A stretch of 64,000 nucleotides of DNA from Spirochaetota bacterium (GTDB taxonomy: Bacteria > Spirochaetota > Spirochaetia > Treponematales > UBA12059), in NCBI GenBank assembly GCA_022703505.1, contig JAKLDN010000004.1:248001-312000 (forward strand). The letters are read 5' to 3'. Below the pieces are notes generated by a model. That model was given only the letters and a program-made list of their open reading frames with translations. It ran no database searches and was not told the origin of the DNA. Of the stretch, positions 8,780 through 25,595 are shown piece by piece. The stretch's first letter is position 1, and every line of letters starts with the position of its first letter. A program made the translations under genes and the position numbers.

Positions 8780-9580
8780 CTACAGGACAAAGAGGAAGAA
8801 GGTCAGCACGTCCTCCCACTTCCGGCTCCGGAAGCCCACCTCCGTGGGGGACGCCAGCTTGGCGCCGGGGAAGTAGGAGGCCCGGTAGGCCCGGTAGTGC
8901 TGCTTGTAGACGATGGACACGTCGAAGGAGTCCGGCAGGGGGAAGCGGAATTTCGAAGGATCCTCCGCCAGGACCGAGGCGGCCGCGGCCTTGATCCGCT
9001 CGGCCGCCAGGTCCGGGTGTATCGAGACGGAGCCGTTCCCTACGCCCTCGGAGACCGGGACGGTGACGAGGTTCGGGTTGTATTCCCGGGCGGTCTCGCA
9101 GAGCTCCCGGTCCCCGGTCAGGAGCAACACGGGGACCCCCATGGAGGCGGCCGTGTACGCGTTGATGACGAACTCCGAGACCGGCTGGCCGTTGATCCGG
9201 AGCTCCTGGACGTTCAGGTCCATGGTGTGGGACAGGGGGTTCCCCCCGCTGCCGGCCATGGAGTGGTAGCCGATGAAGAAGACCCCCTCGAAGCCGGCGT
9301 CGAAGCCTCCCATCATCACCAGGGGGTCCTTGGTCCAGGACCGGAGGATGCAGGCGTTCCGGGGAAGGGCCGAGGGATCGATGGACCTCCCCGTGCCGTG
9401 GGCGTCCTTGACCAGGATATCCGTCACCCCCGCCTCCGCGGCGGCCTCGCAGGCGGCCTTGACCTCCCGGGTCATCTGGGCCCGGAAGTAGGCGGACTGG
9501 AAGTCCCCGTTGTCCGTCTCCCTCCAGTCGACGATGCCGCTGACGCCCTCGATGTCCGCGCTGATGTAGAGCTTGTTCAC
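8780..9580 (-). CDS. dppA: M55 family D-aminopeptidase (DppA-like)
   Basis: A 266-residue zinc D-aminopeptidase homologous to Bacillus DppA, which releases D-Ala from short D-peptides. The N-terminal metal motif ISADIEGVSG, then DAHGTGRS, GYHSMAG and the His of SHTMDLNVQELRING are as in the M55 family. The start is a GTG at 9580 that shares GTGA with the alr stop, so the two genes are coupled. Alanine racemase next door could convert the released D-Ala to L-Ala, which supports a salvage role. Confidence 0.92.
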   Translation of the reverse strand: MNKLYISADIEGVSGIVDWRETDNGDFQSAYFRAQMTREVKAACEAAAEAGVTDILVKDAHGTGRSIDPSALPRNACILRSWTKDPLVMMGGFDAGFEGVFFIGYHSMAGSGGNPLSHTMDLNVQELRINGQPVSEFVINAYTAASMGVPVLLLTGDRELCETAREYNPNLVTVPVSEGVGNGSVSIHPDLAAERIKAAAASVLAEDPSKFRFPLPDSFDVSIVYKQHYRAYRASYFPGAKLASPTEVGFRSRKWEDVLTFFLFVL

Positions 9581-10701
9581 GATTCCGTCTCCTCTTCCGT
9601 GTAGATGCGCGGAACCCGCTTGTTCACCGCGCAGGTGATCTCGTAGTCGATGGTCCCCAGGAGGTCCGCGACCTCCCCCGCGGAGGGTCCCCCGGGGCCG
9701 AAGAAGACGGCGACGTCCCCCTCCCGGACCTCCGGAAGGTCCGTCACGTCCGCCATGCACTGGTCCATGCAGATCCGGCCCGCGATGGGCGCCCGGCCGG
9801 AGGGAAAGCCGACGGAACCCCGGTTGGAGAGGGACCGGAAGACCCCGTCCGCGTAGCCCAGGGGCAGGACCGCCAGGCGGGTGGTCCGGGAGGCCCGGAA
9901 GGTCCGGCCGTAGCTCACGGTGGTTCCCGCCGGGACGGTCCGGGTCTGGACCACCCGGGCCCGCAGGGCCATCGCGGGCTCCAGGCCCGCCAGGCTCTCC
10001 CGCTCCGAGGAGGCGCGCAGTCCGTAGACCGAGATGCCCGGCCGGGCCATGTCCAGCCGGGATTCCGGCAGGAAGAGGAGCCCCCCGGAGTTGGCCATAT
10101 GGCGCAGGGGGATCCGGAGCCCGGCTTCCTCGATCCGCCCCAGGACTGAGCGGTACAGGGCGAGCTGTTCCCGGGCGAACTCCGGGTCCGCGGCGTCGGA
10201 GGCCGCGAAGTGGGAGAAGACCCCCTCCAGCTCGAGCCCCGGAAGGGCCGCGATCGCCCGGGCCGCCCCCGGCGCCTCCTCCGGACGGATGCCCAGGCGG
10301 GACATCCCCGTGTCGACCTTGAGGTGGACCCGGGCCTTCCGCCCCAGGGAGACGGCGGCCTCGGAGACCAGCCGGGCGTTGTCCGCGGAGAGGACGGTGA
10401 CGTCCAGGCCCCAGCCCACGGCTCGGCGGGCCCCCTCGGGCCCCGTATAGCCCAGGACCAGGATGGGGGCCGTGATCCCCTGCCGGCGGAGCTCGATCCC
10501 CTCCTCCGCGAAGGCCACGGCCAGGCGGTCCGCCCCCCCGGCCAGGGCGGCCCGGGAGACCCCGGCGGCCCCGTGGCCGTAGCCGTCCGCCTTGACCACC
10601 GCGCAGAGCCGGGCGCCCGGGGACATGAGGGACTTGAGGTAGCGGACGTTGCGTGTAACCGCGGACAGGTTCACCTCCGCCCAGGCCGGACGGTCGATCA
10701 T
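9577..10701 (-). CDS. alr: Alanine racemase
   Basis: A 374-residue PLP racemase interconverting L- and D-alanine. The PLP lysine is K37 in AVVKADGYGHG; DTGMSRLG, the catalytic Tyr region (TVSYGRTF) and the C-terminal MDQCMADVTD follow in the expected order. The ATG at 10701 is preceded by an excellent ribosome binding site (GAGGAGGAGACC), so the longer in-frame extension upstream is not used. It is the first gene of the operon alr-dppA-lysA-M19 dipeptidase. Confidence 0.95.
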   Translation of the reverse strand: MIDRPAWAEVNLSAVTRNVRYLKSLMSPGARLCAVVKADGYGHGAAGVSRAALAGGADRLAVAFAEEGIELRRQGITAPILVLGYTGPEGARRAVGWGLDVTVLSADNARLVSEAAVSLGRKARVHLKVDTGMSRLGIRPEEAPGAARAIAALPGLELEGVFSHFAASDAADPEFAREQLALYRSVLGRIEEAGLRIPLRHMANSGGLLFLPESRLDMARPGISVYGLRASSERESLAGLEPAMALRARVVQTRTVPAGTTVSYGRTFRASRTTRLAVLPLGYADGVFRSLSNRGSVGFPSGRAPIAGRICMDQCMADVTDLPEVREGDVAVFFGPGGPSAGEVADLLGTIDYEITCAVNKRVPRIYTEEETES

Positions 10702-10846
10702 GGTCTCCTCCTCGGGGCTCCAGTATGGCACGGACGCGGAAATTCTTGGAGGGGGAATCCCCCGGAAGGCATCGGGAGAGCCGCATTTTTTTCGTAAAGC
10801 CCCGGTTTTTCCCGGTCGATACTTTGCTTGGAGACCAGTTCTCCGG

Positions 10847-10885
10847 AACGGCATGCGCGCAGACGTCCAGGCATGCCGTTTTTTT
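10847..10885 (+). terminator. Rho-independent terminator of unknown upstream transcript
   Basis: AACGGCATGC and GCATGCCGTT form a 10-bp perfect stem with a 14-nt loop, followed by an uninterrupted T tract. It faces right, yet the gene to its left (alr) points away, so it would end an unannotated short plus-strand transcript beginning in the alr leader region, or insulate the structured RNA that starts just after it. Confidence 0.6.
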
Positions 10886-10887
10886 AT

Positions 10888-11048
10888 GCCCGGAGGGAAT
10901 CTCCATACCTTTGTCTGTTCGGCACGGGTCCTGCTGCGGGAAGCCCGGTTTCGCTCGGTCCTCGCCGCTTCGCGGCTGCGGAAACGCTCAACCGGGCTTC
11001 CCTCCGCACCCGTGCCGAATCAATGAACAACGGAGATCCCCACCCGGC
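10888..11048 (+). ncRNA. ssrS: Long hairpin RNA, candidate 6S RNA
   Basis: Three nested stems fold this 161-nt stretch into one rod. The closing stem pairs 10888-10904 with 11032-11048 (14 of 17 positions). A 13- by 12-nt internal bubble follows, then a perfect 12-bp stem (10918-10929 with 11008-11019), a small internal loop, and a perfect 13-bp stem (10938-10950 with 10990-11002). The apical region contains a GCCGC-TTC-GCGGC mini-hairpin. A closing stem, open central bubble and long terminal arm are the hallmarks of 6S RNA, the RNA polymerase-binding regulator. CATACC in the bubble and GCTCGGTCC near the tip also recall the E. coli molecule. The strand is chosen from those two motifs. The 460-bp gap between alr and selD holds no other feature I can support beyond the terminator before it. 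Confidence 0.5.
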
Positions 11049-11161
11049 CTAAGCCTTCCAAGGATCTCGGTCCGCGCTTGGCCTCCGGCTTGGAGGCCCG
11101 CACGGCCCGCGTTGACGGCTTTCCATCCATCCCCTACACTTGCCTCCGCAAGGAGGAGCCC

Positions 11162-12220
11162 GTGGATCGGCAGACGATACGCCTGACCCAGCTGTGTTCC
11201 GCCGCGGGGTGAGCGGCCAAGATGGGCCCCGAGGCCCTGGCGCAGGTCCTGCGTCCCCTGACCGCCCTCGTACCCCCCGAGCGTAAGGCCGACCTGATCG
11301 TCGGCCTGGCCGAGGGGGACGACGCAGCCGTACTCAAACTCGACGCCGAGAAGGCCCTGGTCTTCACGGTGGACTTTTTCACGCCCGTGGTGGACGACCC
11401 CTACGACTTCGGCGCCGTGGCCGCGGCCAACGCCCTGTCCGACGTCTACGCGACGGGCGGTGAGCCCCTCATGGCCCTGAACGTGGCGGCCTTCCCGGCG
11501 GACCTGGATCCGGCGGTGATCGCGGCCGTGGTGCGGGGAGGGGCGGAAAAGGCGGCCGAGGCGGGCTGCGCGACCGCGGGGGGCCATACGATCCAGGACG
11601 CGGAGCCCAAATTCGGCCTGGCGGTCATCGGGCTGGCCCATCCGGACCGGCTCTTCCTGAAGACCGGGGTCCGCCCCGGGGACTCCCTGGTCCTGACCAA
11701 GCCCCTGGGCACCGGGGTGATCACCACCTGGGCCAAGAACGGAGCCGTCGATCCGGCGGTCCTGGCCGGGGCGGTGGAGTCCATGAAGCGGCTCAACCGG
11801 AATGCCGCCCGGGTATTCGCCCGCTTCGGGGTCAAGGGCTGCACGGACGTGACGGGCTTCTCCCTGGCGGGGCACGCCCTGGAGCTGGCGGAGAAGAGCT
11901 CCGTCCGGCTCGAGATCGACGCGGGCGCCCTGCCCCTCCTGCCGGGGGCCCGGGCCGCGGTGGAGGGGAAGTTCGTGCCCGGCGGCGCCAAGCGGAACCG
12001 GTCCTACTACGAAGACCGAGTCACCTTCGCGGATGGGGTGGACTCCGTGGTACGAACCTTGTGCTTCGCGCCGGAAACCTCCGGCGGCCTCCTGGCCGCC
12101 GTGCCCGGGGACGCGGAAGGGTGCGTCCGGGAACTGCGGGACCTGGGGGTCGAGGCGGCGGTGATCGGGCGGGCCCTGCCCGCGGTAGACGGCGCCGTCC
12201 CGGGGATCGGGTTCCGCTAG
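11162..12220 (+). CDS. selD: Selenide, water dikinase, itself a selenoprotein (UGA-Sec at residue 17)
   Basis: SelD makes selenophosphate from selenide and ATP, the Se donor for selenocysteine. The frame beginning at ATG 11222 lacks the catalytic N-terminus. Extending upstream gives GTG 11162, six bases after AAGGAGGAGCCC, and residues VDRQTIRLTQLCSAAG, an in-frame TGA, then AAK-MGPEAL. This aligns with the family signature in which residue 17 is Cys or Sec and residue 20 is Lys, so the TGA at 11210-11212 is read as selenocysteine. The full product is 352 aa with the expected GDDAAV, NALSDVYATGGEP and AGGHTIQDAEPK motifs. A simple gene call would truncate it by 20 residues. Confidence 0.93.
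11210..11237 (+). other. Selenocysteine codon and candidate bacterial SECIS hairpin in selD
   Basis: The UGA at 11210-11212 is followed 11 nt later by GGGCC (11224-11228), loop CCGA, and GGCCC (11233-11237), a 5-bp GC stem. Its distance from the UGA resembles that of bacterial SECIS elements read by SelB. The stem is short, and its identity as SECIS is inference. Confidence 0.55.
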
Positions 12221-12303
12221 GAGCCTGCCGGGCTCCTGGCGGTCTTCCCGGGCCTGGAACCAGGTACATCGACATCGAATAAAAAGATTACCAGCTGAGG
12301 TTG

Positions 12304-12328
12304 TTTCAAAACTCAGGGAGTTTTGAAA
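12304..12328. repeat. Perfect 11-bp inverted repeat between convergent genes
   Basis: TTTCAAAACTC and GAGTTTTGAAA flank a 3-nt loop in the AT-rich gap between selD and the HD-GYP gene, which converge here. There is no clear T tract on either strand, so it may be a weak bidirectional terminator or the edge marker of the lower-GC signalling block that begins after it. The rest of the 12221-12453 gap holds nothing else I can identify. Confidence 0.5.
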
Positions 12329-12453
12329 AAGCCGCCTTGAAATTCGCGATAGGCCCAGCGGCTGCAACGCAACCGCAAGCAATCGCAAAGCCAATTCCGA
12401 AGGTGACCGACTTTTTGAATTGGCTCAGCTGCTCGTTCAGGAAGAGGCACTCC

Positions 12454-13473
12454 TCAATCCGGATACAGTGCCCGCACCTCGATGATCTCGTCCCGGGATT
12501 GAAGGAAGGCCGAAACGAGCTTCGGATCGAAGTGCGTACCGGACTCCGAGCGGATAAGATCGACGGCGAGTTCCGGAGGCCAGGCCTTCTTGTAGGGCCG
12601 CTCGGTCGTAAGCGCGTCGAAGACGTCCGCCACGGCGATCACTCTTCCTATCCAGGGAATCCTTTCCCCGGAGAGTCCTTCCGGATATCCGGAGCCGTCA
12701 TACCGTTCATGATGGGTGAGCGCCGCCTCCGCGGCATGGCGGGCGATCTCCGAATCTCCCTTTCCGATGATGTTTGCGCCGATCCTGCAGTGCATGCGCA
12801 TGAGGCCCCACTCTTCCTCGTTCAGGGGTCCGGGTTTCCGCAGCACCGCGTCGGGGACCCCGATCTTGCCGATGTCGTGCATCGGAGCCGCGTTGAGCAC
12901 AAGTTCGGCCGTCGCCGCGTCGGCACCTGCCGCCGACGCGATGATCTGGGAATACCGGCTCATGCGCAGGATGTGGGCTCCCGTTTCATTATCCCGAAAC
13001 TCCGAGGCCCGGACGAGTCTCCGGACCACCTCGAGATGGGAGTCCCGGAGTTCCTTCGTGCGCTCCTCGACCAGGGACTCGAGCTCGGCCCGCGAGCGGG
13101 AGAGTTCAAGTTGGGTTCTTATGCGGAGCTGAAGTATGCCCGGCGCATGGGGCTTCAAGAGAAAATCGGAAGCGCCTCCTCGGATCGCCGCATCGACCGC
13201 GTTTCGATCGAAGAACGGAGCCGAAAAGATAATCGGGACTCGCTGTATCGTCTCCTCTTTCTCCCGAAACCGCGCCAGGAGGGTCAAGGGATCGCTGCCC
13301 CAGAACAGGGCGTCCAGGAGGACGACATCGGGTCGCGGGTCGCCGAAGGAGTACTCCCAGAATTCCCGGTCGTTCCTGGCGTAGATGAACTCGTACTCGG
13401 GCCCGAGCGACTTGCATAGGAGTTCCGTCGCCGGATCGCCGTCCGCGATCAGGATGCGGGGTTTGGCGTTCAT
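12454..13473 (-). CDS. Response regulator with HD-GYP phosphodiesterase domain
   Basis: A 339-residue two-domain protein. The N-terminal receiver domain (about 1-125) has the phospho-acceptor Asp in VVLLDALFW and the conserved Lys in LLKPHAPG. A short coiled linker leads to an HD-GYP domain (about 160-335) with HDIGKIGVP and HHERYDGSGYPEGL, the catalytic signature of cyclic-di-GMP phosphodiesterases. It probably degrades c-di-GMP when phosphorylated. It follows tetR on the same strand with a very small gap, so the two are likely cotranscribed. An upstream ATG at 13500, 6 bp after the tetR stop, would add nine residues. Confidence 0.9.
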   Translation of the reverse strand: MNAKPRILIADGDPATELLCKSLGPEYEFIYARNDREFWEYSFGDPRPDVVLLDALFWGSDPLTLLARFREKEETIQRVPIIFSAPFFDRNAVDAAIRGGASDFLLKPHAPGILQLRIRTQLELSRSRAELESLVEERTKELRDSHLEVVRRLVRASEFRDNETGAHILRMSRYSQIIASAAGADAATAELVLNAAPMHDIGKIGVPDAVLRKPGPLNEEEWGLMRMHCRIGANIIGKGDSEIARHAAEAALTHHERYDGSGYPEGLSGERIPWIGRVIAVADVFDALTTERPYKKAWPPELAVDLIRSESGTHFDPKLVSAFLQSRDEIIEVRALYPD

Positions 13474-13506
13474 CGACCTGTACCTGGTATTCCGTGTCAT
13501 CCCGGG

Positions 13507-14190
13507 CTACACGGGTCTTCGTCCCCGAGCGGACAGATCGTCCACGATCGGATCGCCCTCCCCGGCCGGGGCTGGAGAGTCTTCAAACTGCTTCCTGAGG
13601 GGAGCATACACCCGTTCCACCGTCTGTGCATCCATTCCCAGGAGGACGGAGGAAAACCTCACGAGGGCCTTGATCCGTCGGGGGATGCTCGGCTCTCCGG
13701 CGCCCGGGGACCCGAGGAATTGGGCGAATGTGAGGGTAAGCTCCGCGAATTCCAAGGCGTGCTCGACCCGGCACCGGCCCGCGGCGTTGCCTTGTTCCAG
13801 GATGCGGGCGAAAGGGGGCGCGCAGAACTCGACCATCGCCAGCATCGTCTTGTCCCGGATGTCTATGTACTTGATCTTCTGCAGTTTGGCGTACGTGGCA
13901 CCGATCAGGTTCGTCATGATCGCGACGGCGGCCTGATACCTGTCTTCAAACCCGAGGTCGGAGTCCAGTTCCACCCGGATGAGCTGCTCGCGCACGGCGG
14001 CGGCTTCCCGGTCCACGATGGCGTCGATGATGCCTTCCTTGGAATCGAAGTGGTAATACAGTGTCCCCTTCGCGACATCCGCGGCCGTCGCGATCGAGTC
14101 CATCGGAGTGGACTCGAAGCCGTTGGACCTGAACAGCTCCAGGGCGGTATCCAGGATGGTGCTACGAGTATTCATCGTCCGTTCCGTCAT
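13507..14190 (-). CDS. TetR/AcrR family transcriptional regulator
   Basis: A 227-residue repressor with a TetR N-terminal helix-turn-helix (residues about 10-56, ending in VAKGTLYYHFDSKEGI) and a helical ligand-binding C-terminus. The ATG at 14190 has GGAG seven bases upstream. Its own promoter and a double palindrome shared with the divergent kinase promoter lie in the 112-bp gap to the right; the same palindrome recurs upstream of the MCP gene 4.2 kb away, so it probably represses both the kinase and the MCP-cheW operon (inference). The ligand is unknown. Confidence 0.9.
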   Translation of the reverse strand: MTERTMNTRSTILDTALELFRSNGFESTPMDSIATAADVAKGTLYYHFDSKEGIIDAIVDREAAAVREQLIRVELDSDLGFEDRYQAAVAIMTNLIGATYAKLQKIKYIDIRDKTMLAMVEFCAPPFARILEQGNAAGRCRVEHALEFAELTLTFAQFLGSPGAGEPSIPRRIKALVRFSSVLLGMDAQTVERVYAPLRKQFEDSPAPAGEGDPIVDDLSARGRRPV

Positions 14191-24017: not shown

Positions 24018-25595
24018 ATGGAACCGACCAAGACCGCCCACTGGGCGGACATGTATGCCCAGAAGATCATCCGGGAAAAGGGTGACAAGGAAACCTACAC
24101 CTGCGCCAGCGGCATCACCCCCTCGGGTACGGTGCACATCGGCAACTTCCGGGAGATCATCTCCACGGAACTCGTGGTCCGGGCCCTCCGCCGCCTGGGC
24201 AAGAAGGTCCGCTTCATCTACAGCTGGGACGACTACGACGTCTTCCGCAAGGTCCCCAAGAACATGCCCAACCAGGAGGTGCTGACCAAGCACCTGCGGT
24301 TCCCGATAAACCTCGTGCCGGATCCCTACGAGCGGGACTCCAGCTACGCCCGCCACCACGAGGTGAACGTGGAGAAGATCCTGCCCGCGGTGGGGATCTT
24401 CCCCGAGTTCCTCTACCAGGCCGAGCGCTACCGGTCCTCGATGTACGCCGAGGGGATGCGCCGGGCCCTGGAGCGGCGCGCCGAGATCAAGGCGACCCTG
24501 GACGAGTTCCGGGCCGAGGACCTCTCCGGGGACTGGTGGCCGGTCTCCATATTCTGCGACTCCTGCAACCGGGACGATACCACCCTCCAGTCCTGGGACG
24601 GGGAGTGGAAGATCTCCTACACCTGCGCCGACTGCGGCCACGCGGAGACCATCGACCTCCGCAGCGCCAAGGGGGCCAAGCTCTTCTGGCGCATCGACTG
24701 GCCCATGCGCTGGGCCCGGGAAGGCGTGGACTTCGAGCCCGCGGGCAAGGACCACCACTCCCAGGGCGGATCCTTCGACACCGCCCGGCGGATCATCCAG
24801 GTGGTGTACGACGCGGAGGCCCCGGTCTCCTTCCAGTACGACTTCATCTCCATCAAGGGGCGGGGGGGCAAGATCTCCTCCTCCTCCGGGGAGGTGATCG
24901 ACCTCTACGACGTCCTGGAGGTCTACACCCCCGAGGTGACCCGTTACCTCTTCGCGGGCACCCGTCCGAACACCGAGTTCGCCATCTCCTTCGACCTGGA
25001 CGTCATCAAGATCTACGAGGACTACGACAAGACCGAGCGGGTCTACTACGGGGCGGAGACCCTGGCCGACCCCGACGAGGTGGAACGCGAGAAACGGATC
25101 TACGAGCTCTCCCAGCCCGGCGAGCCCGAACCGGTCATGCCCTACCAGGTCGTGGGCGGGTTCCGCCACCTCTGCAACCTACTGCAGATCGACGGGGGGG
25201 ACATCGACCGGACCCTGTCCAAGCTGCCGGGACTCACGAAGGCCCAGGAGCCCAAGCTCCGGGTCCGGGCCCAGTGCGCCTGGAACTGGATCACCAAGTT
25301 CTCCCCCGAGGACTTCCGCTTCCGCCTCCGCGAGGGCGGCTCGGAGATCGAGACCAAGCCGAACGAGAAGGCCGCCCTGGCGGCCCTGCGGGACGCGGTC
25401 TGCTCCGGAGGCTTGGACGAGGCGGCCCTGGCGGAACGGATCTACGCGATCGCCCAGGAGAACGGCCTCGAACCCAAGGACTTCTTCAAGACGGCCTACC
25501 GGGCCCTCCTGGGCAAGGAGCGGGGCCCCCGGCTTGCGGGCTTCCTCCTGGGGATCGGCCCGGAGCGGGTGAAAGCCATTCTCGCGCCGTATTGA
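24018..25595 (+). CDS. lysS: Lysyl-tRNA synthetase, class I (archaeal type)
   Basis: A 525-residue enzyme charging tRNA-Lys. It is a class I synthetase: the HIGH box is HIGN (residues 40-43 in PSGTVHIGNFREI) and the KMSKS-like loop is KISSSSGE (K285). A zinc-finger-like CDSC...CADC pair lies between them. None of the class II LysRS motifs are present. Class I LysRS is found in archaea and in a few bacterial lineages, notably spirochaetes and alphaproteobacteria, so it is a useful taxonomic clue. Confidence 0.96.
   Translation: MEPTKTAHWADMYAQKIIREKGDKETYTCASGITPSGTVHIGNFREIISTELVVRALRRLGKKVRFIYSWDDYDVFRKVPKNMPNQEVLTKHLRFPINLVPDPYERDSSYARHHEVNVEKILPAVGIFPEFLYQAERYRSSMYAEGMRRALERRAEIKATLDEFRAEDLSGDWWPVSIFCDSCNRDDTTLQSWDGEWKISYTCADCGHAETIDLRSAKGAKLFWRIDWPMRWAREGVDFEPAGKDHHSQGGSFDTARRIIQVVYDAEAPVSFQYDFISIKGRGGKISSSSGEVIDLYDVLEVYTPEVTRYLFAGTRPNTEFAISFDLDVIKIYEDYDKTERVYYGAETLADPDEVEREKRIYELSQPGEPEPVMPYQVVGGFRHLCNLLQIDGGDIDRTLSKLPGLTKAQEPKLRVRAQCAWNWITKFSPEDFRFRLREGGSEIETKPNEKAALAALRDAVCSGGLDEAALAERIYAIAQENGLEPKDFFKTAYRALLGKERGPRLAGFLLGIGPERVKAILAPY

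Follow-up and report, generated by a model that had tools for sequence, protein, structure and literature searches.

We found that positions 11162–12220 of the window, by which we mean the whole stretch of 64,000 nucleotides that was analyzed, encode a complete selenophosphate synthetase (SelD) of 352 residues whose enzyme activity is predicted, and that the in-frame UGA at its codon 17 is almost certainly read as selenocysteine. The best explanation, to which we assign a probability of about 0.96, is a SelD with a UGA-encoded Sec17 whose insertion would be directed by SelB through a hairpin downstream of the codon. The coordinates of the gene and of its elements are collected in Table 1.

Table 1. 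The selD gene of the window and its sequence elements; distances are counted from the UGA.
Feature	Position	Strand	Remarks
selD	11162..12220	+	352 codons and TAG, GTG start, codon 17 a UGA predicted as Sec; from frame, HMM and alignment
Shine-Dalgarno AAGGAGG	11150..11156	+	5 nt upstream of GTG; read from sequence
TGA, predicted selenocysteine 17	11210..11212	+	column of Cys17 in the solved SelD chain 3u0o
Lys20 codon, second catalytic residue	11219..11221	+	3u0o alignment
Truncated ATG ORF, 332 aa, without residues 1-20	11222..12220	+	standard gene call
H1, GGGCC CCGA GGCCC	11224..11237	+	+12 to +25 after UGA, loop near +18
H2, GGCGCAGGTCCTGCGTCC	11239..11256	+	+27 to +44 after UGA; loop GGTCC 11245-11249; best bSECIS fit

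From the GTG, 16 sense codons lead to the TGA, after which the same frame stays open to a TAG at 12218–12220. An earlier, sequence-only reading of this DNA had described the same start, ribosome-binding motif, and interrupted frame, and all of these can be read directly. The selD of a congener carries the identical Shine-Dalgarno sequence at the identical spacing and starts with TTG. With the UGA read as Cys, the translation matched the selD family model TIGR00476 over residues 7–317 with 359.2 bits, above the curated cut-off of 125, and contained the AIRS and AIRS_C domains. Alignment with 3u0o, the best solved SelD chain, ran without gaps through the catalytic segment and paired U17 with Cys17 and K20 with Lys20, so that the UGA and the lysine stand at the two catalytic positions where the sequence-only reading had placed them. 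It had also expected a standard gene call to cut the gene short, and the conventional ORF does begin at the downstream ATG; with that start, the catalytic segment with positions 17 and 20 is lost from the annotated protein.

Two hairpins lie behind the UGA. H1 corresponds to the short GC hairpin that had been seen to begin 11 nt past the UGA; it is real, yet it proved to be one of two candidates, and H2 fits the model of the bacterial SECIS (bSECIS) better. When compared with the constraints of that model, which we took from PMC13188914, H2 has a 5-nt loop with a G in the first two positions and then a U, a stem of 5–6 bp, and 32 nt between the UGA and the loop, a distance within the published model. 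To express selection on structure as a z score, the folding energy of each hairpin region was set against sequences encoding the same amino acids with each gene's own codon usage. The mean z for H1 and H2 was −1.2 and −2.7 in the window's clade (13 related sequences), −1.6 and −1.8 in the SelD of Chloroflexota (63 related sequences), and −0.04 and −0.17 in Cys-SelD (13 sequences); a control stretch at +46 to +60 gave about +0.2. Both regions exceed the expected stability in the first two groups, and neither does in Cys-SelD; as the sequences are related, these averages are not independent tests. Covariation was found in both hairpins. In H2, pair 33-37 was formed in 59/79 (shuffle mean 47.7) and pair 30-40 in 72/79 (shuffle mean 57.7), counts that 0 of 2000 shuffles reached, and in H1 pairs 13-25 and 14-24 covaried beyond all 2000 shuffles, with no such excess for pair 15-23. 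In the window's own sequence, neither hairpin was unusually stable (z about −1 against synonymous sampling for either one, and about 0 for H1 against dinucleotide shuffles), and RNAalifold returned no consensus structure on a 57-sequence alignment. Both hairpins appear to be under synonymous-site selection in the SelD clade of the window and among the Chloroflexota related to it, and for H2 the z score and the covarying pairs point to the selection on structure beyond the amino acids that marks a bSECIS.

We somewhat favor H2 as the predicted SelB-binding site in the window's selD, with H1 as a spacer. A serious alternative, which we regard as possible rather than probable, concerns the RNA part only and holds that H1 is the hairpin bound by SelB, while H2 would be auxiliary or would reflect another constraint. 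H1 stands at about the distance of the SECIS loop of E. coli fdhF, which lies about 18–19 nt after the UGA, and in a second clade of spirochete SelD the hairpin at its position is the sole selected one: there, a hairpin occurs at the H1 position only, with a loop of GGC or similar and a z of −2.2, H2 is absent (0/16), and the H2 region has a z of −0.18. What weighs against assigning SelB to H1 is that the signal of H2 is the stronger one in the window's clade, that the H2 loop follows the G-U rule there in 15 of 15 cases, and that among Chloroflexota a 4-of-5 stem is kept in only 31/64 for H1 versus 60/64 for H2. The simpler proposal that H2 is the only SECIS and H1 is irrelevant was dropped because in the second spirochete clade the H1 position alone has kept its hairpin. 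Returning to H2 as the favored SelB site, we can suggest only tentatively that a two-hairpin bSECIS, with a SelB-type hairpin at +27 to +44 and a spacer hairpin at +12 to +25, might be common to the window's clade, Chloroflexota, and some Bacillota, with only the hairpin at +13 to +25 in the second spirochete clade. If this were true, a single gene family would include a change in the working position of the SECIS.

The prediction that the UGA is translated as selenocysteine draws on the conservation of the codon and on the coding pattern around it. Among 103 SelD loci from several phyla, collected among relatives and by scanning species genomes, the catalytic column contained TGA in 95 and a Cys codon (TGC or TGT) in the other 8, with no other codon. 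In a larger set, the same column contained 110 Sec and 13 Cys. The 12 codons preceding the TGA showed 80 synonymous versus 39 non-synonymous codon differences between the window and 14 spirochete relatives, with 45, 27, and 95 substitutions at codon positions 1, 2, and 3, and their conservation speaks against a start at ATG 11222. That the TGA is instead a true stop, leaving either a selD pseudogene or a shortened protein made from that ATG without the catalytic segment, is in our view highly improbable: the 332-residue ORF does exist, but its product would lack both position 17 and position 20, the remainder of selD is intact, the codons ahead of the TGA evolve as coding sequence, and the TGA recurs in one column across phyla with Cys as its sole alternative. 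Neither a pseudogene nor a sequencing error nor an internal start accounts for the conserved TGA together with the coding pattern and the start with its ribosome-binding site. Bacteria that read UGA as Trp or Gly exist, but a genome-wide reassignment or near-cognate readthrough to another amino acid can be set aside as extremely improbable, since most of the verified neighboring genes, including alr, lysA, an HD regulator, a histidine kinase, lysS, cysK, and a chemoreceptor, use TGA as their ordinary stop, a tRNA-Sec with anticodon TCA is present together with selA and selB, and Cys is the only other residue at the column. The TGA of selD was also the sole sense-strand in-frame TGA in the window to pass a two-sided coding filter; three other in-frame candidates were rejected as antisense to lysA, an oligopeptidase-like gene, and a PDH-E2-like gene.

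The genome, of 3.66 Mb and 98.5% complete, carries the machinery for Sec. The sequence-only reading had supposed that the organism possesses SelA, SelB, and tRNA-Sec and had named the absence of their genes as evidence that would count against it; we looked for all three and found them. The tRNA-Sec scored 64.6 bits with RF01852, selA 430 bits with TIGR00474, and selB 247 bits with TIGR00475, above the cut-off and with a C-terminal SelB-wing_3 domain. The three genes are clustered on contig C1 as selC-selA-selB; this is not the contig of selD. The window's selD thus has two features of a selenoprotein gene, an in-frame UGA aligned with the Cys of homologues and selA, selB, and selC in the same genome, and the claim that it is itself recoded at UGA agrees with this machinery and with the conserved TGA column. 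Across 59 relatives, a tRNA-Sec was present in 18/18 genomes with a UGA-containing SelD, in 3/5 with a Cys-SelD, and in only 3/36 without SelD. The last three (G002, G007, and G016) have a tRNA-Sec above the cut-off and no SelD match, G016 being 98% complete; either their SelD is too distant for the query, or a stretch is missing, or they hold a tRNA-Sec without SelD. At least 10 relatives have selC and selD only a few hundred bases apart, in many cases on opposite strands (neighboring pairs were seen in G006, G011, G012, G014, G018, G019, G020, G022, G028, G033, and G047); in the window's genus, the two genes are on different contigs.

The sequence-only reading had further expected the organism to express other selenoproteins, and this part was not confirmed: we found no second selenoprotein in the families tested. 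A genome search returned four genes matching the formate dehydrogenase family, none with an in-frame TGA and two of them exceeding the family cut-off and having Cys at their RxCH-type site, and five peroxiredoxin-type matches, again none with an in-frame TGA. Targeted searches of the genome did not find FlpD or the selenouridine synthase MnmH; in the search for GrdB, the control itself was silent. A genome scan with a covariance model of H2 found a well-spaced TGA, in a frame long open on both sides, only at selD, and a match at 24699 was rejected as lying inside a lysyl-tRNA-synthetase-like gene without a suitable TGA. Since selenoprotein families number more than 110 (PMC13188914), these targeted negatives are no proof of absence.

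We hypothesize that the system works as follows. SelD (selenide, water dikinase) would convert selenide and ATP to selenophosphate, with a selenocysteine inserted at the UGA as its catalytic residue 17. SelA would use the selenophosphate to make Sec-tRNA(Sec), and SelB would bring this tRNA to the UGA, directed by a hairpin that lies within the coding sequence shortly after this codon. In the favored arrangement, SelB would bind H2, and H1, placed between the UGA and H2, may shorten the effective distance. Since insertion of Sec17 depends on selenophosphate, SelD would need its own product for its synthesis. What counts against this picture is that the searches found neither a second selenoprotein nor MnmH and so document no wider use of selenophosphate by the organism.

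Two further elements were seen in the region between alr (− strand) and selD (+ strand). Positions 10803–10886 (+) are non-coding and about 90–97% identical to the congener, with much less conserved flanks, and end in a hairpin with a run of seven T behind it, resembling an intrinsic terminator; this segment is a candidate small RNA or leader. At 10918–11019, about 100 nt form a long hairpin with almost perfect pairing (z −7.6), which has a counterpart at the same place in the congener, where the stem differs in sequence and still pairs, so that the pairing and not the sequence has been kept. Rfam searches of 9000–14000 and 10690–11170 gave sub-threshold matches only, mostly of microRNA models on a long GC hairpin.

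For annotation, the consequence is that gene calling would leave the catalytic residues out of this selD, though it is the marker gene for selenium use. The requirement of SelD for its own product is already known, as is the gene type: in a reference set of prokaryotic SelD genes, about 19% encode Sec, invariably at this residue (PMC4561486), in line with the sequence-only statement that some SelD proteins have Sec at residue 17. Among prokaryotic selenoprotein families, Sec-SelD ranks second in size (PMC13188914), and a bacterial SECIS has already been predicted for it (PMC4561486). What is without a report that we could find is the RNA part, as the open-licence literature yielded neither a description of paired bacterial SECIS hairpins nor a report that the SECIS changes place from one SelD clade to another. 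Together, the hairpin pair and this apparent shift offer a natural series on the reach of SelB from the UGA, with which one could ask whether a spacer hairpin makes up for distance.

A midpoint-rooted tree built from 75 SelD rows placed the clade of the window (families f1 and f4) with the Sec-SelD of Chloroflexota (support 100/99), apart from the main spirochete Sec-SelD clade. This suggests horizontal transfer, whose direction the midpoint root leaves free, and is in line with the transfer of the Sec trait reported earlier for Treponema denticola (PMC1794560). Five spirochete genomes (G130, G325, G367, G378, and G391) each have two SelD copies, one with an in-frame TGA and one without.

Taken together, the window's gene resembles known Sec-SelD (SPS2-Sec in eukaryotes) in its family, in the UGA at the Cys17 column, in Lys20, in a downstream hairpin, and in the accompanying Sec machinery; its protein is not distinctive, whereas in the RNA the UGA is followed by a pair of conserved hairpins instead of a single one. 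With Cys-SelD, found in relatives and in some spirochetes beside a Sec copy, it shares fold and family, but in Cys-SelD residue 17 has a Cys codon and neither hairpin shows signs of selection. Compared with the bSECIS of E. coli fdhF, the loop of H2 begins 33 nt past the UGA rather than at the roughly 19 nt of fdhF, and an extra hairpin lies in between. In loop, stem, and spacing, H2 nevertheless agrees with the bSECIS constraints (PMC13188914).
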